A DNA stretch of 33,960 nt from Rhodospirillaceae bacterium Spongia-Bin9 (GTDB taxonomy: Bacteria > Pseudomonadota > Alphaproteobacteria > Bin65), in NCBI GenBank assembly GCA_900197615.1, contig FZLR01000028.1, positions 1-33,960 of the forward strand. Direction: 5' to 3'. The position numbers were made by a program, and so were the translations under genes. The notes below the pieces were generated by a model. The model was given only the letters and a program-made list of their open reading frames with translations, searched no databases and was not told the origin of the DNA. Of this stretch, positions 3,606 through 33,197 are shown piece by piece (positions within the stretch are counted from its first letter, which is position 1; the number at the start of each line of letters is the position of its first letter).

Positions 3606-4573
3606 CAGCCGTCTTCCGGCTCCGGCAGGTTGCGGGTCAGCACCTCCAGGCAGGCCATGCGCACCGCGACGCCCATCTCGACCTGCTCCTGAATGGCGCT
3701 CCGGCCGATATCGTCGGCGACCTCGCTGTCGATCTCGACACCCCGGTTCATCGGCCCGGGATGCAGGATCAGCGCGTCCGGCTTCGCGTTGGCCAGCTTC
3801 TGGCGGTCGAGGCCGAAGAATCGGAAGTACTCCCGGATCGACGGCACATAGCTGCCCTGCATCCGCTCGAGCTGCAGCCGCAGCATCATCACGATGTCGG
3901 CGTCCTTCAGGCCGCGCGCCATATCGTGGAACACCTCGACGCCGAAGCGCTCCATTGCGCCGGGGACCAGAGTCGGCGGGCCGATGACGCGGACCCGCGC
4001 GCCCATGGTGTGCAGCAGGTAGATGTTGGAGCGCGCGACCCGGCTGTGCATGACGTCGCCGCAGATCGCCACAGTCAGGCCCTGGAGCCGGCCCTTTCGG
4101 CGCCGGATCGTGACGGCGTCGAGCAAAGCCTGGGTTGGGTGTTCGTGGGCGCCGTCGCCGCCGTTGACGACCACGCACTCGACCTTCTGGGACAGCAGCT
4201 TGACCGCGCCGCTTTCGGGATGCCGGCAGACCAGCACGTCCGGGTGCATGGCGTTGAGGGTGAGCGCGGTATCGAGCAGCGTCTCGCCCTTTTTGATCGA
4301 ACTGTGTTCGACCGCCATGTTGACGACATCGGCGCCCAGGCGCAGCGCCGCCAGCTGGAACGATGTGCGGGTGCGCGTCGAAGTCTCGAAAAACAGGTTG
4401 ATCACCGTCCGGCCGCTGAGCGTCTTGCCGGGTGTGCGGGCGATGCGGTTGCGCTCGGCATAATGGTCCGACCGGTCGAGCAGCAGGCTGATTTCTTCGG
4501 CCGACAGCCCCTCGATGCCCAGCAGGTTGCGATGCCGGAAATCGACGTTCGGGTTTTTCAGCGCGGCGACCAT
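3605..4573 (-). CDS. pyrB: Aspartate carbamoyltransferase catalytic subunit PyrB
   Basis: A 322-residue ATCase that condenses carbamoyl phosphate with aspartate, the first committed step of pyrimidine synthesis. The carbamoyl-phosphate loop is '[16 protein letters not shown]' (about residues 61-76). Further signatures are '[11 protein letters not shown]', '[14 protein letters not shown]' and '[12 protein letters not shown]'. Length and motifs fit the class that works with a PyrC-like partner and no PyrI. The gene overlaps pyrC by one base, which implies translational coupling and fits the idea that the inactive PyrC homologue is a structural partner. Only 45 bases separate its start from the upstream transporter gene. 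Confidence 0.96.
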
Positions 4574-7559: not shown

Positions 7560-8891
7560 CTAGAACACTTTCGGGATATAACGGTAGGGGACCGCTTCGG
7601 TGTAGCGATCCCAGTCGGCGCCGTATTTCCTCTTGCAGCGCGCCATGTCGCGGCGCGTGCGATGGAGGAGGAAGATCACGAAGAACGTCACATAGAAATA
7701 GGGCAGGAAATGATCGACGCCGCAGACCAATCCCCATGACAGCGCCATAAGCACGTCTGCGGTGTAGTGGGGCTTGCGGGCGTAGCGCCACCACCCGTCG
7801 ACGAGCAACTTGGAACCGGCCGCGGTGTCCAGGTAGCGGGGATTTTCCAGAGTGCCCCACGGCAGCTGCGGAAATGCCTTTCGTTTCACATACGAGCCGT
7901 TGAGGCGCATGCGGAAGCGGTTACGCTGGCTGTTTGCAGTGTCCCAAACGTAATAGGCGCCGAACAGGAGGACGAAGAGGAAAACCGTGTACGGAGTCGA
8001 TAACTCAAAGGGCGGTCGGGACGCAATGTACATGGAACTGAAGCAGTAGACGAAGGGCACCCCTGCAAGGTTCCAAAAAATCAGCATCCATCCCCATTTC
8101 TCGTAGAAGATGTCCCAGGTCGTGGGGATGCACTCCTCGCCCTTCATACAGGCGTTGGCGTAGAGGAAATGGGCGATGACCATGAAGATCATGGGAGTGC
8201 TCACCGCACCGTAAGCGGCGTATTGGTGCGCGGCACCGCTTGCCGTCAGGAGAAACAGCGCGATCCACGACACGCGAATTTCCGCCCACATCTTCAGGTC
8301 GAGCGTCCCGATACGCGGGTTGAGCCACGCCCCCTTGAAGAAATCGTAAAGAAAGCGGCCCGACATCCGCTCGGCGTTGCCTGTGACAATTGCTCCGAAA
8401 TACACGGCGAGTGCGACCGCGTTTGCGGTAACGATGGCCGCGACCATGAACGAACCGAACTGTTCGAAGACGGTCTGCAACGGGTAAATGCCGGTAAAGT
8501 GCAGCGACGTGACACCGGCCAACGTCAGGTACCAGGCGGTGGTTCCATTGCAGCGATAAACTAGTTGCTTGCCGCCGCGCGACGGGATCGGCAACCCCTT
8601 GATCTCCAATCCGGGGATAAGGGCCGCCATCGCCCCTTGCGCGACCAGGAACGCCCAATAGATCGCGAACGTGCTCCACGTCGGCGCAGCATGTGTAACG
8701 ACCTGCTCCCAGGTCCGAGCGAGGAACGAGCCCACATCGGAAAGCCCCGCCGGAAAAGGGGCGGCGCCGTCGTTGAAGCGCCATGCAATCCACAGGTAGA
8801 GCATCAATCCGTGCGAGAGGACCATGATGATGGCCGTCCCGAGCGGACCGCCGAATTCTCGTGCGGCTTTCTCGTTCTTATCCGATGTCAT
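7560..8891 (-). CDS. Erg4-type sterol C-24(28) reductase
   Basis: A 443-residue polytopic membrane protein of the ERG4/ERG24 family. It matches yeast Erg4 specifically rather than Erg24: 'REFGGPLGTA' at the N-terminus, 'YRCNGTTAWYLT' (112-123), 'EKWGWMLIFWNLAGVPFVYC' (264-283), 'YYVWDTANSQRNRFR' (313-327), 'LLVDGWWRYARKPHYTADVL' (362-381) and 'RRDMARCKRKYGADWDRY' (413-430). The DTAN-x-Q and HYTAD blocks are the Erg4-like ones. In fungi Erg4 reduces the C-24(28) double bond left by side-chain methylation, using NADPH at the membrane. The divergent neighbour is a sterol C-24 methyltransferase, which would supply exactly that double bond. The ATG at 8891 has a GGGA upstream; an ATG at 8918 would add nine residues. 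Base composition looks less GC-rich than in the flanking housekeeping genes. Confidence 0.88.
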   Translation of the reverse strand: MTSDKNEKAAREFGGPLGTAIIMVLSHGLMLYLWIAWRFNDGAAPFPAGLSDVGSFLARTWEQVVTHAAPTWSTFAIYWAFLVAQGAMAALIPGLEIKGLPIPSRGGKQLVYRCNGTTAWYLTLAGVTSLHFTGIYPLQTVFEQFGSFMVAAIVTANAVALAVYFGAIVTGNAERMSGRFLYDFFKGAWLNPRIGTLDLKMWAEIRVSWIALFLLTASGAAHQYAAYGAVSTPMIFMVIAHFLYANACMKGEECIPTTWDIFYEKWGWMLIFWNLAGVPFVYCFSSMYIASRPPFELSTPYTVFLFVLLFGAYYVWDTANSQRNRFRMRLNGSYVKRKAFPQLPWGTLENPRYLDTAAGSKLLVDGWWRYARKPHYTADVLMALSWGLVCGVDHFLPYFYVTFFVIFLLHRTRRDMARCKRKYGADWDRYTEAVPYRYIPKVF

Positions 8892-9063
8892 GGGCCGATT
8901 CCCGCTTCTTGCAAGCATCCATTCTGTGTGCGTGTCCCTTGCAAGGTCGCAATGCCCCGATGGCCGTGAACAGGCGGCCTGCGAAGGCGGGCAGTGCGAT
9001 CATTGCGGTCCTCCGAAGGCGTCCTGCATCGGCGTCGCGAAGCGGGGTGTCGATTGTTCTGCG

Positions 9064-9092
9064 AATATCCCAGTCTTGGGGAAATTGTTCAA
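9064..9092 (-). promoter_or_regulatory. Predicted promoter for the Erg4-like reductase
   Basis: On the minus strand, TTGAAC (9092-9087) and GATATT (9069-9064) have a 17-base spacer. Transcription would start near 9057, about 165 bases before the ATG at 8891. It overlaps the plus-strand promoter for the sterol methyltransferase, so the two genes probably share a control point. Confidence 0.45.
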
Positions 9093-9104
9093 TTCTGTTA
9101 TAGT
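9076..9104 (+). promoter_or_regulatory. Predicted promoter for the sterol methyltransferase
   Basis: TTGGGG at 9076-9081 and TATAGT at 9099-9104 are separated by 17 bases. The expected transcription start is at or within a base or two of the ATG at 9111, and no ribosome site precedes that ATG, so the message may be leaderless. The box match is good at -10 and weak at -35. Confidence 0.5.
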
Positions 9105-9110
9105 GTTGGA

Positions 9111-10142
9111 ATGGTGAACTCACCCTCCAAACGATCAAGCTCCCGTTTCCTCGCGGATCTCGCTCCGGATGAAGTGAAGCCCACGGTCGACGGATACACC
9201 GCGATCTACGACGCCGGCCTTGAGGGCCGGAAGGAGCATTATCGGTCGTTCGTGAATCGCTATTACGACCTGGTCACCGATTTCTACGAGTTCGGCTGGG
9301 GTCATTCCTTTCACTTCGCGCCCCGGCGCCGCGGCGAGCGTTTCAAGGCGTCGCTGCGCAGGCACCAGCATTATCTCGCCGACCGGCTGTCCCTGAAGCC
9401 GGGGATGGATGTCCTCGATGTCGGATGCGGCGTGGCGGGGCCGATGGGCAACATGGCCCGTCATTCCGGCGCCAGCTTCGTCGGCATCAACAATAACGCC
9501 TACCAGATCGAGCGCGCGAAGCTGCACACGAAGGATGTCCAGCCGTTGTGCCGCTTCATCCAGGGCGATTACATGCAAATTCCCGAAGGCGACGGCAGCT
9601 TCGACGCCGCCTTCGCCATCGAAGCCACGGTTCACGCACCGGACAAGACGGCGCTGTTCCGGGAGATCTTCCGTGTCCTGCGTCCGGGGGCCTGTTCCGC
9701 CAGCTACGAAAGGTGCCTCACCGAAGACTTCGATTCCGGCAACGCCGAGCACCAGCGGATCAAGAACGAGATCATGGTGGGGGACGCGCTGCCGGATATC
9801 GCCGGCACAGGGGAAGTTCTCACCGCATTGCAGACGGCCGGGTTCGAGCTCCTGGACGCGCACGACCGCGCGCCCGAATCGGATCCGCAGACGCCCTGGT
9901 ACCGCGCGTTGCAGGGCCGCGACCTCAGCCTGTCGAGCATCCCGCGCACGCCGTTCGGCCGGGCCCTGACAAATTTGACGTTGCGGGTCGGAGAGAGATT
10001 GCGGGCGTTTCCCGAGGGCTCCCGCGCGGTCAGCACGCTGTTGAACGCCGCGGCGGACGCGCTGGTCGAAGGCGGCAGGTCCGGCATCTTTACGCCGATG
10101 TTTTTCGTCCTGGCCCGCAAGCCGGAGCGTCCGGAAGGCTGA
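9111..10142 (+). CDS. Sterol C-24 methyltransferase (Erg6/SMT type)
   Basis: A 343-residue SAM-dependent methyltransferase that matches yeast Erg6 and plant SMT along its whole length. Sterol-binding region I is 'YEFGWGHSFHF' (59-69), the SAM site is 'LDVGCGVAGPM' (102-112), then 'GINNNAYQIERA' (125-136), 'AIEATVHAP' (169-177; 'EATCHAP' in eukaryotes), 'GDALPD' (224-229), and the C-terminal sterol methyltransferase domain ending 'NAAADALVEGGRSGIFTPM'. It should move a methyl group to C-24 of a delta24 sterol such as lanosterol or a demethylated derivative. One departure: the conserved 'YEWxMTD' block reads 'YERCLTED' (199-206), with Arg for Trp. The ATG at 9111 was chosen because homology starts soon after it and a promoter ends just before; an in-frame start at 8994 gives unrelated sequence. 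It converges on the epoxidase-cyclase gene (46-base gap, no terminator hairpin seen). Confidence 0.92.
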   Translation: MVNSPSKRSSSRFLADLAPDEVKPTVDGYTAIYDAGLEGRKEHYRSFVNRYYDLVTDFYEFGWGHSFHFAPRRRGERFKASLRRHQHYLADRLSLKPGMDVLDVGCGVAGPMGNMARHSGASFVGINNNAYQIERAKLHTKDVQPLCRFIQGDYMQIPEGDGSFDAAFAIEATVHAPDKTALFREIFRVLRPGACSASYERCLTEDFDSGNAEHQRIKNEIMVGDALPDIAGTGEVLTALQTAGFELLDAHDRAPESDPQTPWYRALQGRDLSLSSIPRTPFGRALTNLTLRVGERLRAFPEGSRAVSTLLNAAADALVEGGRSGIFTPMFFVLARKPERPEG

Positions 10143-10188: not shown

Positions 10189-13100
10189 TCAAGCCGGGAC
10201 ACAGGCAGGCGCCGCTTCGGGCGCGGAAGGCGTCGCGCCGGCGGTCAAGGGAGCCGAAGCGGTCAGATCCGACCGGTCCCGGCGTCGCCGCTCGTAGAGA
10301 CCCAGTGCGTGCAGCGGAAAATACTGCCGATAGAGCACATAGTCCAACAGCGCGGTCCGGAAAAATACCCCGGCCATATCCTGCTTCGGCCATGCCCCGT
10401 CTGCCTCCTGGGATTCGACCAGGAACCTGGCGCCGCGCGAAATCGCGGACCAGTCCGATCCGCCCGCCTCGAGGAGCGCAATCATCGCCCACGCGGTCTG
10501 GATGACCTGGCTTTCCTCGTGCGGGACGTACCGGCCGGTCAGACATCCGCTGTGATGCTCGCCCCATCCCCCGTCCTCCCGCTGGCGGTCCAGCAGCCAG
10601 CGGCAGGCCGAACGCAGCGCCGGATCGCCCGGCCGGGCCCCGCCGGCAAGGAGACCCCTGATGCCGAACAGGGTGCCGTAGATGAACTGAACGCCCCAAA
10701 CTCCGCGCCACGATCCATCCTTTTCCTGTGTCCGGCGCAGCCAGACATCGCCCCGGGCGATGGCGTAGGTCACATCCCGGTCCGCAATTTGCGGAACGTT
10801 CTCTTTGTTCGCGGCGAGCGCCGCGAGACAGGAGGCGGTGCACTCGACGAAAGAATGCTCGGTCATCGAATCGCCGAACATCTCGGCCGGATTCAACCAT
10901 TCCAAACCGAAAACTGAACGGCGCGCCTCGTAGCTGCCGAATCCGCCATCGCGGTTCTGGCTGCGCAGCATGAATGCAGCCGCATCGCGCAACGCAGCCG
11001 CGTTCTCCGCGCCGCGCCGGGCGGCGAATATTCCGAGCGCCGCTTCCGCGGTGCAGTCGCTCACCGGCCAGCCATGCCATCCCCCGGCAAAACACCAACC
11101 GCCCTTCGGATCGGACCGGTAGGCCTCGCGGAACCCGTCGAAGCTTGAATCGATCTGATGTTCGAACAGGAAGTCGGCGCCGCGCCGGAGGGCGTCTTCA
11201 ACCCCGTCGAGCCCGGGAACCGTTGCGAGCGCCTGAAGAGCGAATCCGGTATCCCACGAGGCGCTTCTCGCGCCGGTGACGCGCGCACCGAACTCCTCGT
11301 CTTCCCAGATCCAGCCGTCCAGATTTTCGAGCGCCTGGCGGCAATCGGCGTCGTCCGGGTCGTGCAGCCACAGGGCAAGGATGTTGAGAAGGCCGCTGAC
11401 CGGGGAAATGCTCGTATGGTTGGTGGTCTGCAGCTCCCATTTGATGCGCCGTACGATCGCTTCGGTACATCGGGCGCGCAGGCGCTTGCCGTGGAACCGG
11501 TCGAACAGCCTCGCGATCCCGTAACCGGCCTTGAGCCACCCGCTCGGCCGCGCGTAGAGGTCCGCCTCGCGCAGGCGGTTGCGGGCGGCGGAGAAATCGG
11601 CCTCGGCAAAGCCCTCGGGGAACAACTCCTCCCGCAGCGCCTCGATCGGCGGCGTGACGGGGGCCTGGAACCGGCGCGCGTAAACCGCCGCCATCGCCAT
11701 GTAGATGAGCCTGGTATGGCAGTACCAGTTCGACGGGTGCAGCGGTATCCGGCGCGGAAGGCGCCACAATTCCGGCAGGACGGCGTTGACTCCGCGCCAG
11801 TCGTACAGGTTGAGCAGCGCCAGCCAGAACTTTCCCCAACTCGGAATACCGAGAATCCCTTCGGCCTGGATGAACTGCCGGGCCGGCTCGACCAGGGGAT
11901 CGTTTCGCTCGACACCCAGCAATCGCGCGGCGACATAAACCAGGGCGGTAACGAACAGGTGGGGCGCCGAGTGCTCGTGCAGGCCCCATGCGCCCCCTTC
12001 GAGACGGGTCCGCTCGAAGGAGCGCAGCACACGCCGCCGCCGCCCGGCTTCGAGCGGCTGCCCGATAATGTGGTGCAGCAGCGCGTATTGCGCCGTCAGC
12101 ATGGGGCACCAGACCATCTCGCCTTCCCAGGCGCCGTCCTCGCCCTGCAGGCCCAACAGGCGCGCGGCCGCGCTCTTCAATGCCGGGCCGGCGTCGGGCG
12201 CTTCGACGTCCTTCGGCCGGGCGGACCCGGAGGCTTCGACCGCCGCGGACATGGAATGCAGAAATGCGCGGGCCAGACTGCCGCGGGCCTGCTTGTGCTT
12301 TTCCCCGCCCGCGCCTTTCGTTTCGCGCAGTTGTAGAATTCCGCGCACGAGCCACCAGAGACGAACGACGAACGCACGAAAGATGCTCCTGGCCCGACGC
12401 GAGGAGGCCCGGCGGTTGCTCCGCAAAATCTCACCGACCACCGCCCGGATCACAGTTCCGCTGAACGCGAGGCTCATCGCGGTCGTGGACCGGATTTCGC
12501 AGGCGAGTATCCGCGTGGTCCGGTCGCGGTATGCGGAATTTGTCCGCCAGCCCCGGTAGACTGCGTGTCTGAGCGCCACCGACTCGGCCCGATGATCGGC
12601 AAAGACCTCGTAAAGCCCCAGGGCGAGCAACTCCGGAACCCGGGTCGCCCTGAAACGCCTGGCGGCAAAATTGCGAAATTTTCCGCCCTGGGCCAGCGCA
12701 AGCGCATCGCCGAAACCGAGGGTCATTCCGACCGCCGTCATGGGATGGTAATGCCCGGCCGCGTCGCCTATGAGCACCCGGCGCGAACTCCCGTAAGTGA
12801 CCCGGGGCCTCAACTGATTGGCCGCGGCGTCGAACCGCCCCGCCTGCAACGCTTCGACAAATGCCGGGCCGAGTCCCCCCGGCAGCAAGCCGGCATAGGA
12901 TTCCGACAGAAAGCCGATCCGGTCGCGGGGTGACCAGCGGTCCAGCGGAACATCGACGATCACCCGGATGCAATCTGCTGCCAGACTGTAAATGAGGACC
13001 GGCCCCGGCCCGCCGAGCAGCACATGTCCGAAATTTTCGAACGGCAGGCTCGCCTCCTTCACCGTGACTCCCAGCATCCGAGAGCAGAGCATGGGATCGG

Positions 13101-13614
13101 TCGACAGACCCAGGGATTTGCGCACGATGGACGCCCGGCCGTCGGCGCCGACGATGCGTGCGGCGGTCAGGGACCGTTCCGTACCGTTCAGGGAATAGGC
13201 GATACGTTCGTCTTCGACTGCGGTTACCCGTGCGTGTGGAATGAAATCGACATCAGCCCGGTTCTCGACACCTTCGCGCAGCTTCGAGACGAGCAACGCG
13301 TGATCGCACGCCAAACCCATAGACCTGCCCACATAAGGGAGTACGATCGGTTCGGAGCCGTCTTCCGGAAATACCACGAATCCCTTGCCCACGGTGGTAC
13401 GCGGCAGGGTGTCGAGTTCTATCCCGACGTCGCGCAATATCTCGACAGCAGGCGGATGCAGCCATTCGCCCGCCAGTCGCTCGGACGCCTTGGGATTCGC
13501 TTCGAGCAGGGCCACCCGGGCGCCTTCCCGCGCATGAGCGAGCGCACACAAGCTGCCCACCGGACCCGCGCCGACAATGGCGACGGCGTACTGCCGCGAA
13601 GCGGCGCCGCTCAT
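10189..13614 (-). CDS. Squalene epoxidase-oxidosqualene cyclase fusion protein
   Basis: One uninterrupted 1141-codon frame. Residues 1 to about 430 are an FAD monooxygenase of squalene epoxidase type: 'VAIVGAGPVG' (11-20), 'AGEWLHPPAVEIL' (48-60), 'IVGADGRAS' (154-162), and 'IGDAAGHYHPMTAVGMTLG' (282-300). About 431-475 is a polar linker. About 476-1105 is an oxidosqualene cyclase: 'WYCHTRLIYMA' (630-640), the catalytic 'VSDCTAE' (851-857, acid D853), and five QW-type repeats such as 'SQNRDGGFG' (885-893), 'TQEKDGSW' (962-969) and 'RQREDGGWG' (1010-1018). DCTAE, not the DDTA of hopene cyclases, and Val two residues before the Asp point to lanosterol-type cyclisation. The ATG at 13614 overlaps the CYP51 stop (ATGA). 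An internal ATG at 12252 lacks a ribosome site, so a separate cyclase is unlikely. Predicted: squalene to 2,3-oxidosqualene to lanosterol, at the membrane. Confidence 0.9.
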   Translation of the reverse strand: MSGAASRQYAVAIVGAGPVGSLCALAHAREGARVALLEANPKASERLAGEWLHPPAVEILRDVGIELDTLPRTTVGKGFVVFPEDGSEPIVLPYVGRSMGLACDHALLVSKLREGVENRADVDFIPHARVTAVEDERIAYSLNGTERSLTAARIVGADGRASIVRKSLGLSTDPMLCSRMLGVTVKEASLPFENFGHVLLGGPGPVLIYSLAADCIRVIVDVPLDRWSPRDRIGFLSESYAGLLPGGLGPAFVEALQAGRFDAAANQLRPRVTYGSSRRVLIGDAAGHYHPMTAVGMTLGFGDALALAQGGKFRNFAARRFRATRVPELLALGLYEVFADHRAESVALRHAVYRGWRTNSAYRDRTTRILACEIRSTTAMSLAFSGTVIRAVVGEILRSNRRASSRRARSIFRAFVVRLWWLVRGILQLRETKGAGGEKHKQARGSLARAFLHSMSAAVEASGSARPKDVEAPDAGPALKSAAARLLGLQGEDGAWEGEMVWCPMLTAQYALLHHIIGQPLEAGRRRRVLRSFERTRLEGGAWGLHEHSAPHLFVTALVYVAARLLGVERNDPLVEPARQFIQAEGILGIPSWGKFWLALLNLYDWRGVNAVLPELWRLPRRIPLHPSNWYCHTRLIYMAMAAVYARRFQAPVTPPIEALREELFPEGFAEADFSAARNRLREADLYARPSGWLKAGYGIARLFDRFHGKRLRARCTEAIVRRIKWELQTTNHTSISPVSGLLNILALWLHDPDDADCRQALENLDGWIWEDEEFGARVTGARSASWDTGFALQALATVPGLDGVEDALRRGADFLFEHQIDSSFDGFREAYRSDPKGGWCFAGGWHGWPVSDCTAEAALGIFAARRGAENAAALRDAAAFMLRSQNRDGGFGSYEARRSVFGLEWLNPAEMFGDSMTEHSFVECTASCLAALAANKENVPQIADRDVTYAIARGDVWLRRTQEKDGSWRGVWGVQFIYGTLFGIRGLLAGGARPGDPALRSACRWLLDRQREDGGWGEHHSGCLTGRYVPHEESQVIQTAWAMIALLEAGGSDWSAISRGARFLVESQEADGAWPKQDMAGVFFRTALLDYVLYRQYFPLHALGLYERRRRDRSDLTASAPLTAGATPSAPEAAPACVPA

Positions 13615-15020
13615 CGGAAAACGCTCGGCTCCGAGCGTCGGCGATAGCGGACCAGGCACGGGGTTTCGGGTCCCGTCACCCAGCTGCCGTAGTTCGGACG
13701 CGGAAACCCGGAGCTGAGAGAGAAATCGAAGCGATCGAGCAGAACGGTCCAGATCGCCTTGAGCTGCATGTAGGCGAAATTCTTGCCCATGCAGGCGTGC
13801 TTGCCGCCGCCGAAACCGATCAAGGCGTAGTGATGTTGCTTGTCCTCGCAAGCGGGCGGCGCGAAACGGTCGGGAAAGAACCGTTCCGGATCGGCGAAAA
13901 TGTTGGGTAACCGGTGAGAAACAGCCGGCGACACCATGGCCATGGTGCCGGCAGGCACGACGCGGTCCCGGTACCGCAGGGGTTCGAGCACCTTACGGAC
14001 CAGCAAGATCAGCGGCGGGTGCAACCGCTCGCCTTCGCGGACGGCGTTTTCCATCGCCGGCTGGTGCTGGAGACTGTCGAAGCTCATCGACCCTGCTTTG
14101 CCATAGACCTCCCGCGCCTCGTCTCTTATGCGTTCCACATAGGCGGGTGCCCTGAGGAGCTCCAGACCGGTCCAGGTCGCGAGCACCGCGCTGGTGTGCT
14201 GGCCCGCGAACAGGACAGTCAGCAGGATCCCGGTAATCTCGTCGTCGGACAGGGCGCGGCCGTCCTTGTAGCGGGCGTTCATCAGCGTCTGCATGAAATC
14301 GTCGGGGCCGGTCCCGGATTTCCGGCGCTCCGCCATGATCCCGGTGAAGAGGTCCGCCACTTTCCGCCGGGCCCTGTCGCGGCTTCGATGCGACGCGGTG
14401 GGAAGCCTGGGCAGAAAGAACCCCAGGACGTTGATGCCTTTCTGCAGATCGCGGTAAGCCTCGGCAAATCCTGTGTCCACCCGATCGCGGACCTCCTGGC
14501 CGATCAGGCTGCGGCTGGCGATCTTGACGGTGAGTTCGTTCAACGCTTCCGGCAGATCGATTTCCCCTTCGTCTCCGAGATCGTCGGCAAACCGCCGGGC
14601 CTCGTCGAACATGATGAGGGCAAACCTGCGCATGTTGGCTTCGCGCAGCGCCGGAAACAGGAAGCCCAGCTGCTCCGACATGATTTCGGGAGAGGTGTCG
14701 TACGCTACGCCGCGTCCGAAGATCGGTACGGTGAACCGGTATACGGCCTTGGCGTTCAGCTGCTCCTCGGGCGCCCTGAAATAGAAATCGTGGGCTTCGG
14801 GCCCGGTGAAGAGAGCGAAGTCGCGCGGGCCGATCCGGAAGCGGTAGAGATCGCCATGCTCGCGCCATCCGCGGCTCAACATGGCGATCGGATCCCTTCG
14901 AAATTCCGGCAGTTGGCCGAGCAGCGGCCATCCGCCTGCAAGCGTGGGAGCGGCCGTCGCCGGCGGCGGCGGAAGCTCCGCCGAACTCAGGGTCGCCGTA
15001 CTGTCAGACCGGTTTGCCAT
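13611..15020 (-). CDS. cyp51: Sterol 14-alpha-demethylase, cytochrome P450 CYP51
   Basis: A 469-residue P450 without a membrane anchor. The haem loop is 'FGGGKHACMGKNFAYMQLK' (403-421, Cys410 ligand), the I-helix is 'FAGQHTSA' (271-278; AG-x-HTS is CYP51-typical), and ExxR is E329-R332 in 'REGERLHPP'. The substrate-contact B'-C region reads 'VYRFTVPIFGRGVAYD' (93-108), which is characteristic of CYP51. It removes the 14-alpha methyl of lanosterol in three oxidations. The ATG at 15020 follows a GAGAG ribosome site and lies 8 bases after the sterol reductase stop; an ATG 21 codons upstream would overlap that gene. Its stop overlaps the start of the epoxidase-cyclase gene (ATGA). The redox partner is not in the window. 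Confidence 0.94.
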   Translation of the reverse strand: MANRSDSTATLSSAELPPPPATAAPTLAGGWPLLGQLPEFRRDPIAMLSRGWREHGDLYRFRIGPRDFALFTGPEAHDFYFRAPEEQLNAKAVYRFTVPIFGRGVAYDTSPEIMSEQLGFLFPALREANMRRFALIMFDEARRFADDLGDEGEIDLPEALNELTVKIASRSLIGQEVRDRVDTGFAEAYRDLQKGINVLGFFLPRLPTASHRSRDRARRKVADLFTGIMAERRKSGTGPDDFMQTLMNARYKDGRALSDDEITGILLTVLFAGQHTSAVLATWTGLELLRAPAYVERIRDEAREVYGKAGSMSFDSLQHQPAMENAVREGERLHPPLILLVRKVLEPLRYRDRVVPAGTMAMVSPAVSHRLPNIFADPERFFPDRFAPPACEDKQHHYALIGFGGGKHACMGKNFAYMQLKAIWTVLLDRFDFSLSSGFPRPNYGSWVTGPETPCLVRYRRRSEPSVFR

Positions 15021-15028
15021 GTCCGCTC

Positions 15029-16129
15029 TCAATGAATGAACGGCAGCATCGAGAAACGCGCCCGCTGCGTGTAGCGCTCCCACAACTCGCCATACTTGGC
15101 GCGGCAGCGGCGTTCATCGCGTCTCGAACGGTGCCACAACAGAGCCGCCAGCCACGCCGGCAGCAGGTAGGGCCCCCAGGATGTGAGCCCGGTGGTAAGG
15201 GCAAAAGCGAGGTAAATGCAGATCTCGCCGGTATAATTGAGGTGTCGTCCGATGCCCCAAAATCCTGAGACCAGGAGGCGCCCGTCCAGGGTCCGTGCGG
15301 GTTGGCCCCAGATCGAGACATTGGGATCGCGCTTGAAGCGGTGCTTTTGCTGGTTGGCGCCGCGGAAGAGCCAGAAGCCGAAAACGAACAGCAGGACGAT
15401 CGCCGCGGCGGCGGCCGGAGGCAGCGGATCCGGTGCGTGAACCAGCCACCAGCCGGGGAGACAATAGAAGAACGGCACCAGGACGTAGTCGCCCCAGACC
15501 AGCATCCACCCGAAACGCTCGCTGACGATGTCCCAGGTATGGACCATTCCGTGTTCGAACTGGAAGTAGTTGAGCACGTAGAGGAACGTGAAAATCTGAA
15601 AGAGCGCCATCGCCAGGGTAAGCCCGCCGTAGGTTTCGTACTGCACGACGGCAAACGATGCGTTGAACAGCGCCAGACCGATGAGAGAGGGGCGGTAGCT
15701 GAAGAGCTTCAGGTCCAGCCCAAAGCAGACCGGGCTGGCCTCCACACCGAAGAAGAAACCCCGCCAGGACCCGCGCGACGCATGACGTTCCCGCACGCCC
15801 CGGAAATACAACCAGCCGGACAGCGCGAATGCGAACGCGTTCGCCGCCACGAACAAGGCAACGAAGTGGGTATGCAGCACCGAAAGGGAGAACCAGCCCA
15901 GGACCTGGGCGAGACCGGTCACAGCGGCGGCGATCAGGAACAGGGCGAGGCCGTTGAGCTTGTAGACGCGCTGTTTTCCGTCGGCATCGGGGCCCTCGAC
16001 CCGGCGGCCGGGAAGGAGCGCCGACCCCAGGAACAGCAGGGCGATAAACGCCATCGCCATTGCCGCTGCGTTGAGCAGGTCCCCGCCCGACAGCGCGGTC
16101 AGCGGGACGAGCGGTTCAGACGCGGACAT
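15029..16129 (-). CDS. Sterol C-14 (or C-7) reductase, ERG24/DHCR7 family
   Basis: A 366-residue membrane protein with about nine hydrophobic stretches. Family blocks: 'HTWDIVSERFGWMLVWGDYV' (197-216), the NADPH-binding 'GANQQKHRFKRDP' (257-269), 'LLVSGFWGIGRHLNYTGE' (285-302), and 'RSRRDERRCRAKYGELWERY' (334-353). It is a paralogue of the Erg4-like gene but clearly another subfamily. Directly upstream of CYP51, a delta14 reductase is the needed next step, so that is my first choice. However, 'SIWGQPA' (272-278) recalls the WG-x-x-P block of delta7 reductases (DHCR7), so C-7 activity stays open. It overlaps sdmA by 14 bases and sits 8 bases before cyp51, within one operon. Confidence 0.85.
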   Translation of the reverse strand: MSASEPLVPLTALSGGDLLNAAAMAMAFIALLFLGSALLPGRRVEGPDADGKQRVYKLNGLALFLIAAAVTGLAQVLGWFSLSVLHTHFVALFVAANAFAFALSGWLYFRGVRERHASRGSWRGFFFGVEASPVCFGLDLKLFSYRPSLIGLALFNASFAVVQYETYGGLTLAMALFQIFTFLYVLNYFQFEHGMVHTWDIVSERFGWMLVWGDYVLVPFFYCLPGWWLVHAPDPLPPAAAAAIVLLFVFGFWLFRGANQQKHRFKRDPNVSIWGQPARTLDGRLLVSGFWGIGRHLNYTGEICIYLAFALTTGLTSWGPYLLPAWLAALLWHRSRRDERRCRAKYGELWERYTQRARFSMLPFIH

Positions 16130-17213
16130 CGCCGTTCTCCGAACCGTTTGCCAGATGCTCGCGCCACTTGCGCACGGTCACTTCCTGGAAGGACTGCACC
16201 ACAGGATTGAACTCATAGGGACGGGCGTCCCAATGTTCTTCGTAACCCTGTTGCTCTGCTTCGAGCGCAAACCGGTCCTGGGAGAGCAGGGGAGCGATAA
16301 GCAGACGGTTTGATATCTTCATGACTGCGGTCATGGCGAATCGGGGAATGCGCACCGGTAGGAAAGGTATCTTCAACGACTTGAAGTAGAACAGGAAGAA
16401 CACCCGGGTGGTGCGCTCATCGACGGGGAGCACGAAAAGCCAGTGCTTGATCGCGTCGTCGGTATTCGACCACTGGTAGGGATATTCGTAGCAAAGCTCC
16501 ATGCGATTGGTGTCGAGGCGCTTGTGATCGACGAACAGTCCCGAGATACGCCCGCGTCCGACCCGCGTATCGTATGAGAGGTGCACATTGTCGCCGACCG
16601 TCTCGCAATTGCGGAGTTTGGCCCCGTCGAAGGGCCGGTAGCGGCGGTGCAGATGGGCGTGGGTGAAGTCGCTCACATTGTCGATCACCATCGAATGGTG
16701 CGCCGACCAGGTGAAGCGCAGCGGCACGCAGGTCCATCGGCCGGGGCCCTCGAGCTCGGGGATGTCCGGTATCCGGCGTAGCTCCGCCTGCTCCGGATCG
16801 CCGGGGAAGAGCCAGACCAGGCCGTAGCGGACTTTTACCGGATAGGTCTTGATCGCGAGTCGCGGAAAGCCCCGTCCGTCGGTGTCGTACGGCACCCCGG
16901 CAGGGCGCCCCTCACCGCCGTATTCCCAGCCATGGTAGGCGCATACGAGCCGGCATCCCTGCACGTCGCCGATGGAGAGTTTGAGCTGGCGATGCGCGCA
17001 TCGGTTCTCGATCGCTTGGAAGGTGCCGTCCTTGCCCCGGAACAGCGCAATGGAATGTTTCCAGAATACGACTTCGACCACCGTTCCCGGCTTGATCCGG
17101 CGCACTTCTTCGACCGCGTACCAGTAATTCGGATCCATGCCCGCAGCGCGCGCCTGCTGACGCAGGGTGCCGGCCTCGTCGAAGCCGGGCGGTGCATTCG
17201 GTGCGGGCGTCAT
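16116..17213 (-). CDS. sdmA: Rieske oxygenase for sterol C-4 demethylation (SdmA type)
   Basis: A 365-residue Rieske non-haem iron oxygenase. The [2Fe-2S] ligands are C72 and H74 ('RCAHRQLKLS') and C91 and H94 ('VCAYHGWEY'). The mononuclear iron site is 'DNVSDFTHAHLH' (178-189), with H185 and H189 as ligands. In Methylococcus capsulatus a Rieske oxygenase named SdmA, with the dehydrogenase SdmB, removes a C-4 methyl group of sterols. Here the next gene upstream encodes exactly such a dehydrogenase, with start and stop overlapping (ATGA), so the same role is inferred. Its ferredoxin and reductase are not in the window. A cholesterol 7-desaturase or 3-ketosteroid 9-alpha-hydroxylase type activity is less likely given the neighbours. 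Confidence 0.88.
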   Translation of the reverse strand: MTPAPNAPPGFDEAGTLRQQARAAGMDPNYWYAVEEVRRIKPGTVVEVVFWKHSIALFRGKDGTFQAIENRCAHRQLKLSIGDVQGCRLVCAYHGWEYGGEGRPAGVPYDTDGRGFPRLAIKTYPVKVRYGLVWLFPGDPEQAELRRIPDIPELEGPGRWTCVPLRFTWSAHHSMVIDNVSDFTHAHLHRRYRPFDGAKLRNCETVGDNVHLSYDTRVGRGRISGLFVDHKRLDTNRMELCYEYPYQWSNTDDAIKHWLFVLPVDERTTRVFFLFYFKSLKIPFLPVRIPRFAMTAVMKISNRLLIAPLLSQDRFALEAEQQGYEEHWDARPYEFNPVVQSFQEVTVRKWREHLANGSENGDVRV

Positions 17214-18382
17214 GTCGGGCTCCCGTCGGGCATTAGCCGCATGGCCCGGTCCGGCACGGGGCTTTCGGCCTGTCCCGCGCCATGAGGGTTCGGGGCGGGT
17301 GCGCGCGGTCGTTTTGCACGCGGATTCGAGATCGCACCGCGGCTGTAGTGAAACGCATAGGCTTCATGAACCGCGTCGCGGATCCCGGTCGGCCGATAGC
17401 CGAGTTCCCGTTTCGCCTTGCCGGTGTCGGCGTGGCGGCACTTTCGCAACAGGCGTATCGCGCCGGGGGTGAAGCGCTGGGGAAAGCGCGGGTGGAAACG
17501 GCTCAGATAGAAGCTCGCCACTTCGGAGAAGACGAGCATCAGGCGGGCCGGAATCCGCCGGCCCGGCCGCGGGATGCCCGAGACCTCTTCGTACAGGTCG
17601 ATGATATCCGAAATGGTCTTGTACTCGCTGCTGAAGATGTACTTTTCGCCCGAGCGGCCGTGGCGCATGCACAACAGATGCCCTTCGACAATGTCGCGCG
17701 CGGCGACGAACTCGAACCCGCCATCGACATAGGCGCGGAGCTTGCCGTCGGTGTAGTCGCAGAGGGTTCTTCCCAGCCGCGACGGGAAGAAGTCGGCGCC
17801 TCCCACCACCGCACAACAGGTCGCGACCACGACATCCTGGCCCGTTGCCGCGGCGCGCCAGCACTCCTGCTCGACGAGCGATTTGCTGCGCTCGTAGGGC
17901 ATCGTGCGCTCCATGGGATAGAACTGCATGGTCTCGTTGCTGGGCGCGGAGGGATCGTCCAGATCGTAACCGACCGCGCTGAAAGAGCCCGTGACCACCA
18001 CCCGGCCGGCTTCCGCCTCCCGGGCCGCCTGCAGCACGTTGCGGGTACCGAGAACATTGCACTCGAATAAGTCCCGTCGATGCGCGCGGTTGCCTTCGAT
18101 GGTCGAGACGTAGGCCGCACAGTGATAGACGCCCCGACACCCAGAAAGCGCCTGCCTTGTGGCCTCCAGGTCCCGGATGTCCCCGAACGCGCGCTCGACG
18201 TCGAGGCCTTCCAATCCCTCGTTGTTGTCCTCGTCTCGCAGCAACACCCGGACCCGCACGCCGTCGTCGAGCAGCCGGCGCACGAGATTGGCGCCGACAT
18301 GCCCGGCCGAACCGGTGACGAAAACCGGCGGTACCGATGAGTCCGGCGCTGTGCTCGATCGTGAAGTCATCGGGGCCAACAT
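17210..18382 (-). CDS. sdmB: NSDHL-like 3-beta-hydroxysterol dehydrogenase/C-4 decarboxylase (SdmB type)
   Basis: A 390-residue extended short-chain dehydrogenase. The NAD(P) loop is 'VFVTGSAGHVGANL' (20-33), 'DLFECNVLGTRNVL' (104-117) is the extended-SDR Asn region, and the catalytic Tyr-x3-Lys is Y163/K167 in 'PYERSKSLV'. It should oxidise the 3-hydroxyl and decarboxylate the C-4 carboxylate produced by the Rieske partner. It is the first gene of a five-gene overlapping operon. The ATG at 18382 has no clear ribosome site; an ATG at 18370 is equally possible. The C-terminal 50 residues are Pro/Ala/Arg-rich and look non-conserved. A long intergenic region with candidate promoters precedes it. 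Confidence 0.87.
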   Translation of the reverse strand: MLAPMTSRSSTAPDSSVPPVFVTGSAGHVGANLVRRLLDDGVRVRVLLRDEDNNEGLEGLDVERAFGDIRDLEATRQALSGCRGVYHCAAYVSTIEGNRAHRRDLFECNVLGTRNVLQAAREAEAGRVVVTGSFSAVGYDLDDPSAPSNETMQFYPMERTMPYERSKSLVEQECWRAAATGQDVVVATCCAVVGGADFFPSRLGRTLCDYTDGKLRAYVDGGFEFVAARDIVEGHLLCMRHGRSGEKYIFSSEYKTISDIIDLYEEVSGIPRPGRRIPARLMLVFSEVASFYLSRFHPRFPQRFTPGAIRLLRKCRHADTGKAKRELGYRPTGIRDAVHEAYAFHYSRGAISNPRAKRPRAPAPNPHGAGQAESPVPDRAMRLMPDGSPT

Positions 18383-28844: not shown

Positions 28845-30831
28845 AGCGGCGATCCCTGCCGGCGAATTGGCGATCCGACGCTGGGTCGCAGGCTCCGGGC
28901 AATCCGGCCTTCGCGTCGCGCTCTTCCTGCTCGCGCCGTTCGTTCTGGTCCTTCTGATCGGCCCGTGGCTGCCGGACTGGCTGCGCATCGTTCCGAAAGA
29001 CTGGTCGGCGCCGTTCGTCGGCTGGATTAACGTGGTCGTGGAGGCGCTGCGCACGGAAGAGATTTTCGGCCTCCTCACCTTCCGGGACATCACCCGGGCG
29101 ATCGCCAACCTGATCGACTATCCCCTCGATTTCGTCGAGGCGGTCCTGGTCGCCGGATTTTCGGATTCGGTTCCCGGCCTGCCGTGGATTGCGGTCACCG
29201 GCCTGGCGGTCGTGCTCGGCTGGTACCTGCGGGGCCGCCAGCTCGGCATCGTCGCCGGCATCTGCTTTGCCTACATGGCGATCTTCGGCAAATGGGAACT
29301 GTCGATGGTCACCCTGTCGGTGGTGCTGGTGGCCGCGCCCGTCGCCGGCGCGATCGGGGTGGCGCTCGGCATCGTCGCCTACAAGAAGGCGTGGTTCGAG
29401 AAGGTGCTGTGGCCGGTCCTCAACGTCATGCAGGCGCTGCCGCATTTTTCATACATGATCCCGGTCGCCATCTTCATCGGCATCGGCCACAAGGCCGGCA
29501 CCATCGCCACCATCATCTTCGCCTTTCCGGTGATGTCGCGCCTGACCATCCTCGGCCTGAAGGGCGTGTCGCCGGAGGTGCGGGAAGCCGGCATCATGGC
29601 CGGCTGCACGAAGCGGCAGATGCTGTGGAAAGTCGAGCTGCCGGCGGCGCGGCCGACGCTGATGGTCGGCGTCAACCAGGTCATAATGCTATGTCTGGCG
29701 ATGGTCGTCCTCGCGTCCTTTGTCGGCGCCAAGGGGCTGGGCCACGATCTGCTGAACCGGCTGCGCTCCCTGTGGATCGGCCAGGCGCTCGAGATCGGCG
29801 TGGTGATCGTCTTCATGGCGATCATTCTCGACCGGCTCAGCCAGGCCTGGGCGGAGAAGCAGCCGGAACATGCCCGGGAAGGGCCGTTCCACGTCCGTCA
29901 TCCCTTCGCGACGGCCGGCATCGCGGTCGTCGTCATTTCCTACATCCTGGCGGCGTTTATCCCGGCGCTGCAGTTGTGGCCGAAGTCGCTGTCCGTCACG
30001 ACGGCACCCATGTGGGATGCGATGATCGACGCCATCGTCGTCTACGCCTTCGACTATCTGGAGCTGATCAAGGATACGCTGCTGGTCCACGTCCTGATCC
30101 CGATGCGCGATCTGTACCTGCTGCTGCCCTGGTCGGCCCTGCTCGTGTTCGCGGTCACGCTCGGCTGGTATTACGGCGGCTGGCCGGTCGCCGGCATCCA
30201 GGCGCTGTTCGCCCTCTATCTCGCCTTTGCCGGCTTCTGGGAGCGGACCCTGATCACCGCCTACATGGTGAGTTTCGCGGTGATCGTCTGCGTCGTCATC
30301 GGTTCGATCGTCGGCGTCTGGGCCGCCGCCGGGCCACGGCGGACGAAGGTCGTCGAGCTGGTCCTCGATACCTTCCAGACATTCCCGTCTTTCATCTACC
30401 TGATCCCGGCGATCATGTTGTTCAACGTCAACGACTTCGCCGCCATCATGGCGATCGTGATCTACGCGACGATCCCGACGACCCGCCTGACCATCTTCGG
30501 CCTGAAGACCGTGCCCCACGACATCGTGGAGGCGGCTATCGCCTCCGGCTGCACGCCGCGCCAGGTGTTGTGGAAGGTGCGCATGCCGCTCGCCTTCCCG
30601 GCAATCATGCTGGGCATCAACCAGACGATCATGTACGCCCTGTTCATGGTCGTGATCGCCGCGTTTATCGGCACCACGGATCTCGGCCAGGAGATTTTCC
30701 GCTCCAAGGCGGAGAACGACGCCGGCAAGTCGCTGGTCGTCGGCCTGTGCGTGGCTTTCATGGGCCTGATGGCCGATCAGCTGATCAACGCCTGGGCCCG
30801 GGAACGCAAGAAAGTGTTGGGGTTGGAATGA
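28837..30831 (+). CDS. Fused double permease of the quaternary-amine ABC transporter
   Basis: A 664-residue membrane protein from the GTG at 28837, overlapping the ATPase stop. It carries two ProW-like permease units in one chain. Each has its own EAA loop: 'EAGIMAGCTKRQMLWKVELP' in the first half and 'EAAIASGCTPRQVLWKVRMP' in the second. Each is preceded by 'ALPHFSYMIPVAIFIG' or 'TFPSFIYLIPAIMLFN', and about seven hydrophobic segments surround each. One polypeptide therefore supplies both halves of the channel that two identical ProW subunits normally form. Its stop overlaps the next start (ATGA). Confidence 0.93.
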   Translation: MAEAAIPAGELAIRRWVAGSGQSGLRVALFLLAPFVLVLLIGPWLPDWLRIVPKDWSAPFVGWINVVVEALRTEEIFGLLTFRDITRAIANLIDYPLDFVEAVLVAGFSDSVPGLPWIAVTGLAVVLGWYLRGRQLGIVAGICFAYMAIFGKWELSMVTLSVVLVAAPVAGAIGVALGIVAYKKAWFEKVLWPVLNVMQALPHFSYMIPVAIFIGIGHKAGTIATIIFAFPVMSRLTILGLKGVSPEVREAGIMAGCTKRQMLWKVELPAARPTLMVGVNQVIMLCLAMVVLASFVGAKGLGHDLLNRLRSLWIGQALEIGVVIVFMAIILDRLSQAWAEKQPEHAREGPFHVRHPFATAGIAVVVISYILAAFIPALQLWPKSLSVTTAPMWDAMIDAIVVYAFDYLELIKDTLLVHVLIPMRDLYLLLPWSALLVFAVTLGWYYGGWPVAGIQALFALYLAFAGFWERTLITAYMVSFAVIVCVVIGSIVGVWAAAGPRRTKVVELVLDTFQTFPSFIYLIPAIMLFNVNDFAAIMAIVIYATIPTTRLTIFGLKTVPHDIVEAAIASGCTPRQVLWKVRMPLAFPAIMLGINQTIMYALFMVVIAAFIGTTDLGQEIFRSKAENDAGKSLVVGLCVAFMGLMADQLINAWARERKKVLGLE

Positions 30832-33197
30832 ACATCCAGACGCCGCAAATGCCGCTGGCGCAGCAGCCCTCGAAGGCCGGCGCCGTCCTGATCCCCGGCT
30901 TGCCCACCCTGGGCTTCGGGGTCGAGCGCTATGTCGCGCAGGGCGGCGCGGCGACGGTCTTTTCCCTCGAACCCGGCGATACCGTCACGGTGCGCGACCG
31001 GGAAGGGCGGCAGGCCGCCGAGATCGCGGCGTTCGCGCCGGACGGCTCGGCCGATACGGAGGCGCTGGGCACGGGGGCCGGCGGAGCGGCCAAAGGCCTG
31101 AAGGCCATCCTCGGCGCCGATAACGAAACCGCCCGCTCGCTGGCGGCGAGCCTGCAACGGCGCGGCCTCGATATCGCGGCGGCGCGTTCCATAGACATCC
31201 TGGGCGGCGAGTCGCGGCCCGGCGACGAGGCGGCCTTCACCGCCGAACGACCGCTGGTCTGCTTCGTGGCGGCGCCCGGCGGCGCGATGCGGGTCGACCG
31301 TCAGGATACGCCGACACCGGTCGAGATATTCGTCGCCCGCGCCAACCCGGCCGCGCCGGACGAACATCCGGTGCCGGAGCCGCTTGCCGATCCGCGCATC
31401 GACCTGCGCGTCGCCGCCCGGACCGCCGAAGCCTACGAGGTCAAGGCCGGAGAGTTCATCCAGATCGTCGACGTGCAGGGCCGGGAGTGTTCGGATTTCC
31501 AGGCCCTGACGGTTGCCGGCCTCGAAAAGGGGCAGGAACTTTGCCTCGATGCGACGGCGACCCGCACCCTGATGGGCAACGCCTATCCGGCGCCGGGGCT
31601 GCTGTCGAAATTCTACGACCAGGATTTACAGCCGCTGCTCGAGGTGGTGCGCGACACCTGCGGCCGGCACGACAGCTTCCTGTTTGCCTGCACGGCGAAA
31701 TACTACGACGACATGGGCTATCCCGGCCATGTCAACTGCACCGACAATTTCAACAAGGTCCTGGCGCCGTTCGGCATCGCGCCGCGGCGCGGCTGGATGG
31801 CGCTCAACTTTTTCTTCAACACCGGGTTCGAGGCCGATCAGGCCGTCTTCGACAATCCGTGGTCGCGGCCGGGCGATTACGTGCTGATGCAGGCGCTGAC
31901 CGACATGGTCTGCGTCTCGTCCGCCTGTCCGGACGATATCGACGGCGCCAACGGCTGGAACCCGACCGACATCCATGTGCGGGTCTACCCGCGCGAGAAC
32001 GTGTTTTCCAAAGCGGTGGCTTATCGCATGACTCCCGACGCCGATCCGAAGCTCACCAGGGAAACCGGCTTCCATAGCCGGTTTGCCGGGCACACAAGAA
32101 ACTTCGCCGAATACAACGGCTACTGGCTGGCCAATAGTTTCACCAACCGCGGCGCGCTGGACGAATACTGGGCCTGCCGCGAGCGGGCCGTCATCATGGA
32201 CCTGTCGCCACTGCGCAAGTTCGAGGTCCTGGGGCCGGATGCCGAGCGCCTGCTGCAATGGACGCTGACCCGGAACGTCCGGCGGCTGGCGACCGGCCAG
32301 GTCGTCTACTCCGCCATGTGCTACGAGACCGGCGGCATGATCGACGACGGCACCGCGTTTCGCCTCGGCGACGACAATTTCCGCTGGATCGGCGGCTGCG
32401 ACTATGGCGGCGAATGGATGCGCGAGCAGGCGGCGAAACTGGGCCTCAATGCCTGGGTCCGGTCGTCGACGGACCAGCTCCACAACGTCGCCGTCCAAGG
32501 CCCTAAGAGCCGGGACATCCTCAAAGAGGTCGTGTGGACGCCGCCGGCTCAGCCCTCGATGGAGGAAATGGGCTGGTTCCGCTTCGCCATCGGCCGGATC
32601 GGCGATCACAACGGCATCCCGGTCGTCGTCTCCCGCACCGGTTACACCGGCGAACTGGGCTACGAGGTGTGGTGCCATCCGCGCGACGCCGGCGCGGTGT
32701 GGGACGCCATCTGGCAGGCCGGCGAGCCGCACGGCCTGTCGCCCTTCGGCCTGGAAGCGCTGGACCTGGTGCGGATCGAGGCCGGCCTGATCTTCGCCGG
32801 CTACGAGTTCGACGACCAGACCGATCCCTTCGAGGCCGGCATCGGCTTTACCGTGGCGCTCAAGACCAAGAACGAGGATTTCGTCGGCCGCGAAGCCCTG
32901 GTCCGGCGCAAGGAGACGCCGCAGCGCAAGCTGGTCGGCCTGGAGCTGGACGGGCAGGAGGCGGCGGCCCACGGCGATTGCGTCCATATCGGCCGGGCCC
33001 AGGTCGGCACGATCACCAGCGGCATGCGCTCGCCCATCCTGCGCAAGAACATTGCCCTGTGCCGGATGGATGTGACGGCCTCGGAGGAGGGGACCGCCGT
33101 CGAGGTCGGCAAGCTGGACGGCCACCAGAAGCGCATCCCGGCAAAGGTCGTACCGTTCCCGTTTTACGACCCGACCAAGTCCCGGGTGCGGGCCTGA
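30828..33197 (+). CDS. DUF1989-GcvT fusion, probable folate-dependent methyl- or aminomethyltransferase
   Basis: A 789-residue protein whose ATG at 30828 overlaps the permease stop. Residues about 195-370 are a DUF1989 domain ('AGEFIQIVDVQGRECSDFQA', 'YYDDMGYPGHVNCTDNFNKV'). Residues 1-190 look like a diverged second copy ('LEPGDTVTVRDREGRQAAEI'). From about 395 to the end is a GcvT/aminomethyltransferase domain ('RAVIMDLSPLRKFEVLGPDA', 'VAVQGPKSRDILKE', 'SRTGYTGELGYEVW', 'GLEALDLVRIEAGLIFAGYE'), the folate-binding fold that takes one-carbon units from amines. Placed right behind a betaine-type importer, it probably demethylates or cleaves the imported amine with tetrahydrofolate as acceptor. 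The reaction and substrate are inferred; a DMSP-demethylase-like role is an alternative. Confidence 0.85.
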   Translation: MNIQTPQMPLAQQPSKAGAVLIPGLPTLGFGVERYVAQGGAATVFSLEPGDTVTVRDREGRQAAEIAAFAPDGSADTEALGTGAGGAAKGLKAILGADNETARSLAASLQRRGLDIAAARSIDILGGESRPGDEAAFTAERPLVCFVAAPGGAMRVDRQDTPTPVEIFVARANPAAPDEHPVPEPLADPRIDLRVAARTAEAYEVKAGEFIQIVDVQGRECSDFQALTVAGLEKGQELCLDATATRTLMGNAYPAPGLLSKFYDQDLQPLLEVVRDTCGRHDSFLFACTAKYYDDMGYPGHVNCTDNFNKVLAPFGIAPRRGWMALNFFFNTGFEADQAVFDNPWSRPGDYVLMQALTDMVCVSSACPDDIDGANGWNPTDIHVRVYPRENVFSKAVAYRMTPDADPKLTRETGFHSRFAGHTRNFAEYNGYWLANSFTNRGALDEYWACRERAVIMDLSPLRKFEVLGPDAERLLQWTLTRNVRRLATGQVVYSAMCYETGGMIDDGTAFRLGDDNFRWIGGCDYGGEWMREQAAKLGLNAWVRSSTDQLHNVAVQGPKSRDILKEVVWTPPAQPSMEEMGWFRFAIGRIGDHNGIPVVVSRTGYTGELGYEVWCHPRDAGAVWDAIWQAGEPHGLSPFGLEALDLVRIEAGLIFAGYEFDDQTDPFEAGIGFTVALKTKNEDFVGREALVRRKETPQRKLVGLELDGQEAAAHGDCVHIGRAQVGTITSGMRSPILRKNIALCRMDVTASEEGTAVEVGKLDGHQKRIPAKVVPFPFYDPTKSRVRA

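Follow-up and report, generated by a model that had tools for sequence, protein, structure and literature searches.

A single reading frame joins two enzymes of sterol synthesis

Contig FZLR01000028.1 of Rhodospirillaceae bacterium Spongia-Bin9 (assembly GCA_900197615.1), of which positions 1 to 33,960 were analysed (hereafter the window), raises the question of whether squalene monooxygenase (SMO) and oxidosqualene cyclase (OSC) are truly joined in one polypeptide. The original prediction, made from the DNA letters alone, had claimed a single 1141-codon frame with no stop between epoxidase and cyclase and had read it as a natural fusion. Reading of the minus strand, the prediction having named no strand, together with Pfam domain assignment confirmed the frame, which begins with the ATG at 13614, ends with the stop at 10191-10189 and encodes 1141 aa without internal stops. 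We consider it very likely to encode a genuine SMO-OSC fusion, a bifunctional enzyme of bacterial sterol synthesis. Its features are as follows.

10189-13614, minus strand: smo-osc fusion gene, 1141 aa plus stop
12310-13614, minus strand: SMO domain, residues 1-435, with C-terminal helices to about residue 450 in the AlphaFold2 model
12193-12309, minus strand: linker region, residues 436-474; predicted local distance difference test score (pLDDT) <50 at 458-465
12250-12252, minus strand: Met455, the sole ATG at the junction, a residue that recurs in the C-terminal tail of SMO and an unlikely cyclase start
10270-12192, minus strand: OSC domain, residues 475-1115
11044-11058, minus strand: DCTAE catalytic motif, residues 853-857

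Four Pfam models matched the protein above their cut-offs. In the first half these were FAD_binding_3 (residues 9-308, E 1.8e-24) and SE (PF08491, residues 154-309, E 1.1e-21), the latter covering only profile positions 5-162 of 276, and the FAD motifs GAGPVG, GADGR and GDAAGHYHP began at residues 15, 156 and 283. The second half matched SQHop_cyclase_N (480-773) and SQHop_cyclase_C (784-1108) and carried DCTAE, not DxDD, the motif difference that tells oxidosqualene cyclases from squalene-hopene cyclases. The OSC domain also exceeded the cut-off of the wider NCBIfam model TIGR01787 for squalene/oxidosqualene cyclases (496.1 bits; cut-off 322.7). By sequence, the closest solved structures were human lanosterol synthase (1w6k, E 2.1e-131) for the second half and human squalene monooxygenase (E 6.7e-26) for the first. 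The order, with SMO first and both domains in one uninterrupted frame, is that of MsbE, the fused SMO/OSC encoded in the msb cluster (MT026193) of a gammaproteobacterial symbiont of the sponge Melophlus, as given in the portion of PMC7074536 (2020) available to us. The fusion architecture is thus already in print (2020, 2023), and the window gene adds a member.

The junction is open in congeners and probably carries no cyclase start

The gene has 66% GC and one further frame is also open through residues 400-500, so that a long open frame is by itself weak proof; the case for fusion rests on homology on both sides within one frame and on the same open junction seen in three congeneric species. 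The fusion gene was found in four of the seven genomes of the genus, the window's included, and the junction frame was open in all four. The proteins of the three congeners (G002, G004 and G006) were 85, 85 and 78% identical to the window protein; a stop reported in G002 falls at matched position 1139 of 1141 and simply marks where the gene ends. G006 additionally carries a cyclase at 27% identity, perhaps of the squalene-hopene type, and a second fusion fragment that is 75% identical. Four further genomes of the family gave no match to the fusion protein at E 1e-60.

The original prediction had itself named a sequencing error hiding a stop near 12250-12330 as a danger to its claim, an indel or substitution there making one gene of two adjacent ones. 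A 316-contig assembly (4.06 Mb, 95.9% complete) and a GC-rich gene do make spurious read-through easy, yet the same open junction in three congeners and the 36 fused frames with a usable start that were listed from different records reduce the chance of such an artefact to almost nil. Sequencing error as the source of the fusion was accordingly rejected on the congeners' open junction.

It could also be supposed that two proteins arise from the one frame, the cyclase being made alone as well, through an internal start or cleavage of the linker. The ATG of Met455 is conserved in all four genus members with the gene and in many fused homologues, and linker residues 458-465 appear disordered in the AlphaFold2 model, as this would suggest. 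The only in-frame starts within residues 425-481, however, are ATG 12252 and TTG 12180, and a Shine-Dalgarno-like sequence precedes neither, which bears out the earlier statement that the junction Met lacks a ribosome site. Moreover, in the split locus L045 the equivalent Met is part of the SMO C-terminus and precedes the SMO stop, with the cyclase starting further on, at a GTG. On the missing Shine-Dalgarno sequence and the place of this Met in L045, an internal cyclase start at 12252 was rejected, and we regard separate production of the cyclase in general as improbable.

Across 29 aligned fused proteins, the cyclase entry PDAGPAL..A..RLL.LQ.EDG.WEGE recurs after a linker of variable length. 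Between the window gene and that of G002 (locus L003), the ratio of nonsynonymous to synonymous substitution rates was about 0.20 for SMO, about 0.14 for OSC and about 0.57 for the linker, the last drawn from 39 codons only. These values point to two constrained domains, both under purifying selection, connected by a loose linker.

Fused genes occur in ten named bacterial phyla

Scanning the genome contigs of the collection for the cyclase motif GW.[IVM].DCTAE returned at least 119 stretches; the pattern demanded G-W-x-[IVM]-x-DCTAE, so the invariance of those letters is by construction. Among the 119 matches listed, to which all locus counts below refer and in which cut-off loci were extended, 41 OSC loci were fused to SMO, 65 were not fused in the same frame and 13 were undecidable; with at least 119 stretches in the collection, 41 of 119 is no census. 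The 41 include L064 and L091 (from G002 and G006), L138 with its broken 5' end, and L043, L075 and L108, which were included despite an interrupted or truncated cyclase part, and the 65 include loci with broken frames (e.g. L068 and L088) or with no SMO in view.

The architecture search that had been proposed thus returned two-domain SMO-OSC frames from Acidobacteriota, Actinomycetota, Binatota, Chloroflexota, Gemmatimonadota, Myxococcota, Nitrospirota, Pseudomonadota, Rhodothermota and Verrucomicrobiota, and the worry that homologues might always be split at this point did not materialise. A fusion limited to the window's genus was ruled out by these loci. One carrier is Polyangium sp. y55x31, which its record title does not label as a metagenome-assembled genome (MAG), and many of the fused-gene bacteria are presumably sponge symbionts, going by isolate names. 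Not fused were the decidable Methylococcales, three Bacteroidota (four more were undecidable), two Methyloceanibacter, three Corallococcus and three cyanobacteria; the Verrucomicrobiota comprised seven loci not fused, one fused and two undecidable. In a phylum sample of 398 genomes searched with the fusion protein at E 1e-60, the window's own genome was the only match.

Two side observations concern carriers. In a sample separate from the 119 loci, L192 (G719) and L201 (G705) are further Myxococcota frames holding SMO and OSC together. One MAG (COS1_bin_8, JAPOVV01; G585, loci L070 and L078) combines a fused SMO-OSC with a divergent OSC that stands alone and is 57-59% identical to the window's OSC.

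The fusion gene follows a P450 gene in a sterol operon

The operon has the order SdmB-like, SdmA-like, ERG4/ERG24-family reductase, P450, fusion; beyond it come a sterol methyltransferase gene that converges with the fusion and another gene of the ERG4/ERG24 family.

17210-18382, minus strand: SdmB-like sterol dehydrogenase/decarboxylase (NF052578, E 4.9e-90)
16116-17213, minus strand: SdmA-like Rieske C-4 methylsterol oxygenase (NF052579, E 2.1e-120)
15029-16129, minus strand: ERG4/ERG24-family sterol reductase (PF01222, 5.2e-71)
13611-15083, minus strand: cytochrome P450, presumed sterol 14-alpha demethylase CYP51 (Pfam p450, 3.6e-58; no NCBIfam model over its cut-off)
9135-10142, plus strand: sterol C-24 methyltransferase, convergent with the fusion (Sterol_MT_C 1.1e-20 plus methyltransferase domains; open frame 8994-10142, of which 9135-10142 was analysed)
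7560-8918, minus strand: second ERG4/ERG24-family sterol reductase (PF01222, 1.7e-128)

The original prediction had the fusion coupled by ATGA to CYP51. The coupling holds, as the P450 gene overlaps the fusion start in this way; the CYP51 name comes from context. A CYP51 homologue stands directly upstream in 27 of the 41 fused loci, and eight of the other 14 show too little upstream DNA. Three SQS_PSY genes in the window genome could be the source of squalene. A search of this genome with PF13249 found no SQHop_cyclase_N gene besides the fusion, and no hopanoid cyclase was found.

Elsewhere in the window, a plus-strand frame at 29184-33197 encodes one chain in which DUF1989 (742-909) precedes an aminomethyltransferase (GCV_T and GCV_T_C, 966-1329); its first ~740 residues have no Pfam match, and the true start is probably later.

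SMO and OSC trees differ in the history they suggest

Trees were quick ones, without bootstrap and with long branches. L064 and L091 were dropped as duplicates of L003 and L005, as were OSC rows that were shorter than 380 aa or late-starting, which kept 117 of 121 rows; L138 was labelled split in the OSC and SMO trees and fused (broken 5' end) in the approximately unbiased (AU) test. All 42 fused rows of the OSC tree fell in one half (57 rows) together with 14 split rows and one undetermined row, and five changes of state were required, four in a smaller OSC tree. In the SMO tree all 39 fused rows fell in one set of 41 (98*), and the only split rows inside it were L045 and L082.

Both are clean split pairs. 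In L045 (Gemmatimonadota) the SMO stop overlaps the GTG start of the cyclase (GTGA), and in L082 (Dehalococcoidia) the cyclase ATG comes after the SMO stop and is preceded by AGGAG. As both trees place these pairs inside the fused group, re-splitting is the most economical interpretation, and in the lineage of L045 and L082 the fusion appears to have been split again. The two trees conflict, possibly because SMO was replaced next to a cyclase that had been set free. In three cyanobacteria smo lies just before osc on the same strand, plausibly the state before fusion. The fusion gene most likely arose when neighbouring smo and osc genes, smo first, were joined in frame, and horizontal transfer probably carried it into unrelated bacteria.

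Predicted structure, product and handover of the epoxide

The AlphaFold2 model of the whole chain (94 rows aligned of 115 references) had a mean pLDDT of 90.7 and a predicted template modelling score (pTM) of 0.89. In this structure prediction, proposed earlier for the linker, low confidence (pLDDT <50) was confined to linker residues 458-465 and to the termini, 1-5 and 1124-1141. In Foldseek the model matched human OSC (TMt 0.85) and human SQLE 6c6r (TMt 0.81 over 481 columns), and a library of viral structures gave only flavoenzyme-type and other partial matches. Random placement of the domains would be expected to give a pTM of about 0.6, the larger domain's share; the value of 0.89 therefore speaks for a definite domain arrangement in the model, and a defined packing of the two domains is plausible.

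Val851, two residues before the catalytic Asp853, aligns with human Val453, the position at which V or I separates lanosterol from cycloartenol types according to the part of PMC10152446 available to us. It is Val in all 29 fused rows of the alignment; among the 43 rows labelled split, which include L138, it was V in 22 and I in 21, the scan pattern having allowed I, V and M. Because of Val851, the product of the fusion is probably lanosterol.

The N-terminal FAD domain would epoxidise squalene to 2,3-oxidosqualene, requiring O2 and an external reductase, and a linker some 20 to 40 residues long would lead into the C-terminal cyclase, which would protonate the epoxide via DCTAE and then fold it, probably to lanosterol. 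Both domains are expected on the membrane, so that the lipophilic epoxide could be handed over at short range. The enzymes would be kept at 1:1, a ratio that the original prediction had named and that follows from one polypeptide. The product may then be processed by other enzymes of the locus: the P450, the sterol reductase, the SdmA/SdmB-like enzymes and the C-24 methyltransferase.

Several results weigh against a bifunctional sterol enzyme with a simple history. The OSC domain reached 731.2 bits (E 9e-220) with NCBIfam TIGR03463, under the cut-off of 851, and is filed as an oxidosqualene cyclase because of motif, best match and fold, not by that model. Likewise, the SdmA-like and SdmB-like proteins scored 401.9 and 302.6 bits, each under a cut-off of 600. 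In the three other genus genomes (G001, G003 and G005) the gene was not found at E 1e-60, and no cyclase match appeared at E 1e-30 either. Six fused loci (L052, L053, L055, L118, L129 and L147) have at least 1.3 kb of upstream DNA with no CYP51 homologue, and the operon is therefore not universal. The AU test on the OSC tree, with L045 and L082 left free, rejected a single clade for the fused rows (p-AU 3.7e-05), and a simple single-fusion history thus misfits that tree. Among the best 50 PDB matches of the model, none exceeded 764 residues in length or 677 columns in alignment, so that no whole-chain solved structure was met. Finally, we found no biochemistry of any fused SMO-OSC in the open-licence literature, MsbE being annotated, not assayed, in the text available.

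Given a genuine fusion, what the covalent link does is a separate matter. The original prediction had proposed channelling of the epoxide to the cyclase, a hypothesis with which the predicted structure is compatible. The join might instead merely fix stoichiometry and co-localise the enzymes on the membrane, without channelling between active sites. Split versions within the fused group (L045 and L082), where covalent linkage is dispensable, favour this more modest role, as does a linker far less constrained than either domain; a pTM that suggests a defined domain arrangement, and the retention of the fused state by most of the group, speak against it, and we judge the matter evenly balanced. 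A far more ambitious account has the join as a selected handover device, whose fixed SMO-OSC packing passes oxidosqualene directly between sites. One SMO lineage, spreading by horizontal transfer, would have brought its cyclase to at least ten phyla, been re-split at least once and been extended by a methyltransferase in one bacterium, and, with SMO joined to squalene synthase in Myxococcota, the early sterol pathway would have been condensed repeatedly into multi-enzyme chains. We consider this whole account doubtful.

Other fusions of sterol enzymes

Two further architectures were met alongside. In L039 (JAPVWS010000307.1, 203-4729, minus strand; Candidatus Versatilivorator vitaminiformans), a 1509-aa frame links SMO and OSC to a sterol C-24 methyltransferase (Sterol_MT_C 2.2e-19) in a triple fusion, seen in one MAG only; the joining stretch contains neither an ATG nor any start preceded by a Shine-Dalgarno sequence. 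L125 has the same two genes as are joined there on one strand with a stop between them.

In Myxococcota (L040, L044 and L107, and genomes G768, G740, G759, G778, G583 and G716), SMO is fused in one frame of about 1000-1200 aa to squalene synthase (SQS_PSY), which unites the epoxidising enzyme with the one that precedes it. This fusion was present in 7 of 282 sampled genomes (G593 being the genome of L040), and its middle region is alpha-helical and, in some members, weakly OSC-like. Its model, built with 9 sequences, had a pTM of 0.63, the depth of 9 against 94 rows being too unequal for it to serve as a control for 0.89. The best 50 PDB matches of this model were squalene epoxidase and other flavin monooxygenases, none matching the middle domain. 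A single search of the open-licence literature gave no paper with all the terms for an SMO-squalene synthase fusion.

Relation to described systems and significance

In the text of PMC7074536 available to us, MsbE is like the window fusion in its lanosterol-type valine, and the msb cluster, like the window locus, holds an NAD(P) oxidoreductase, a Rieske oxygenase, a sterol reductase, a C-30 (C-14) demethylase and a sterol methyltransferase. The same sterol enzymes thus surround both fusions, as judged against that text and not against the MT026193 sequence. The hosts, compared by description only, differ: that of MsbE is a gammaproteobacterium, and the window's kin are named Rhodospirillaceae. 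Brown et al. 2023 (PMC10070321) list "fused SMO/OSC homologs" of the same domain architecture in the methods for an OSC tree; in the parts of the article available these are mentioned only, neither described nor assayed as fusions. The fusions named in the available parts of PMC12146001 and PMC13277303 are of other kinds. "Fused" and "fusion" are absent from the main text of PMC4919349 as available.

An ERG24-CYP51-LSS operon (CSG) from the sponge Ircinia was reported in 115 of 537 sponge MAGs spanning ten phyla, in the part of PMC9531527 (2022) available to us. There the gene is called lanosterol synthase only, and words beginning "monooxygenase", "epoxidase" or "fusion" are absent from the main text. 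Since the LSS/ERG7 codon alignment, at 3765 positions, is long enough, and the synteny agrees, we infer that the Ircinia LSS is an SMO-OSC fusion. The SMO and OSC of Methylococcales belong to the same two families and by inference catalyse the same two chemical steps, but they are two proteins, with the OSC gene first, and are about 33% (OSC) and 25% (SMO) identical to the window's domains.

Surveys that seek a separate squalene epoxidase can miss the fusion or call the gene "lanosterol synthase" only, as the Ircinia study seems to have done. Bacterial sterol capacity can thereby be misjudged, which bears on steranes as biomarkers of eukaryotes or sponges. A natural fusion with split relatives at short evolutionary distance offers a ready test of whether linkage speeds the reaction or protects the epoxide, and the fusion is a possible single-gene part for engineered sterol production.

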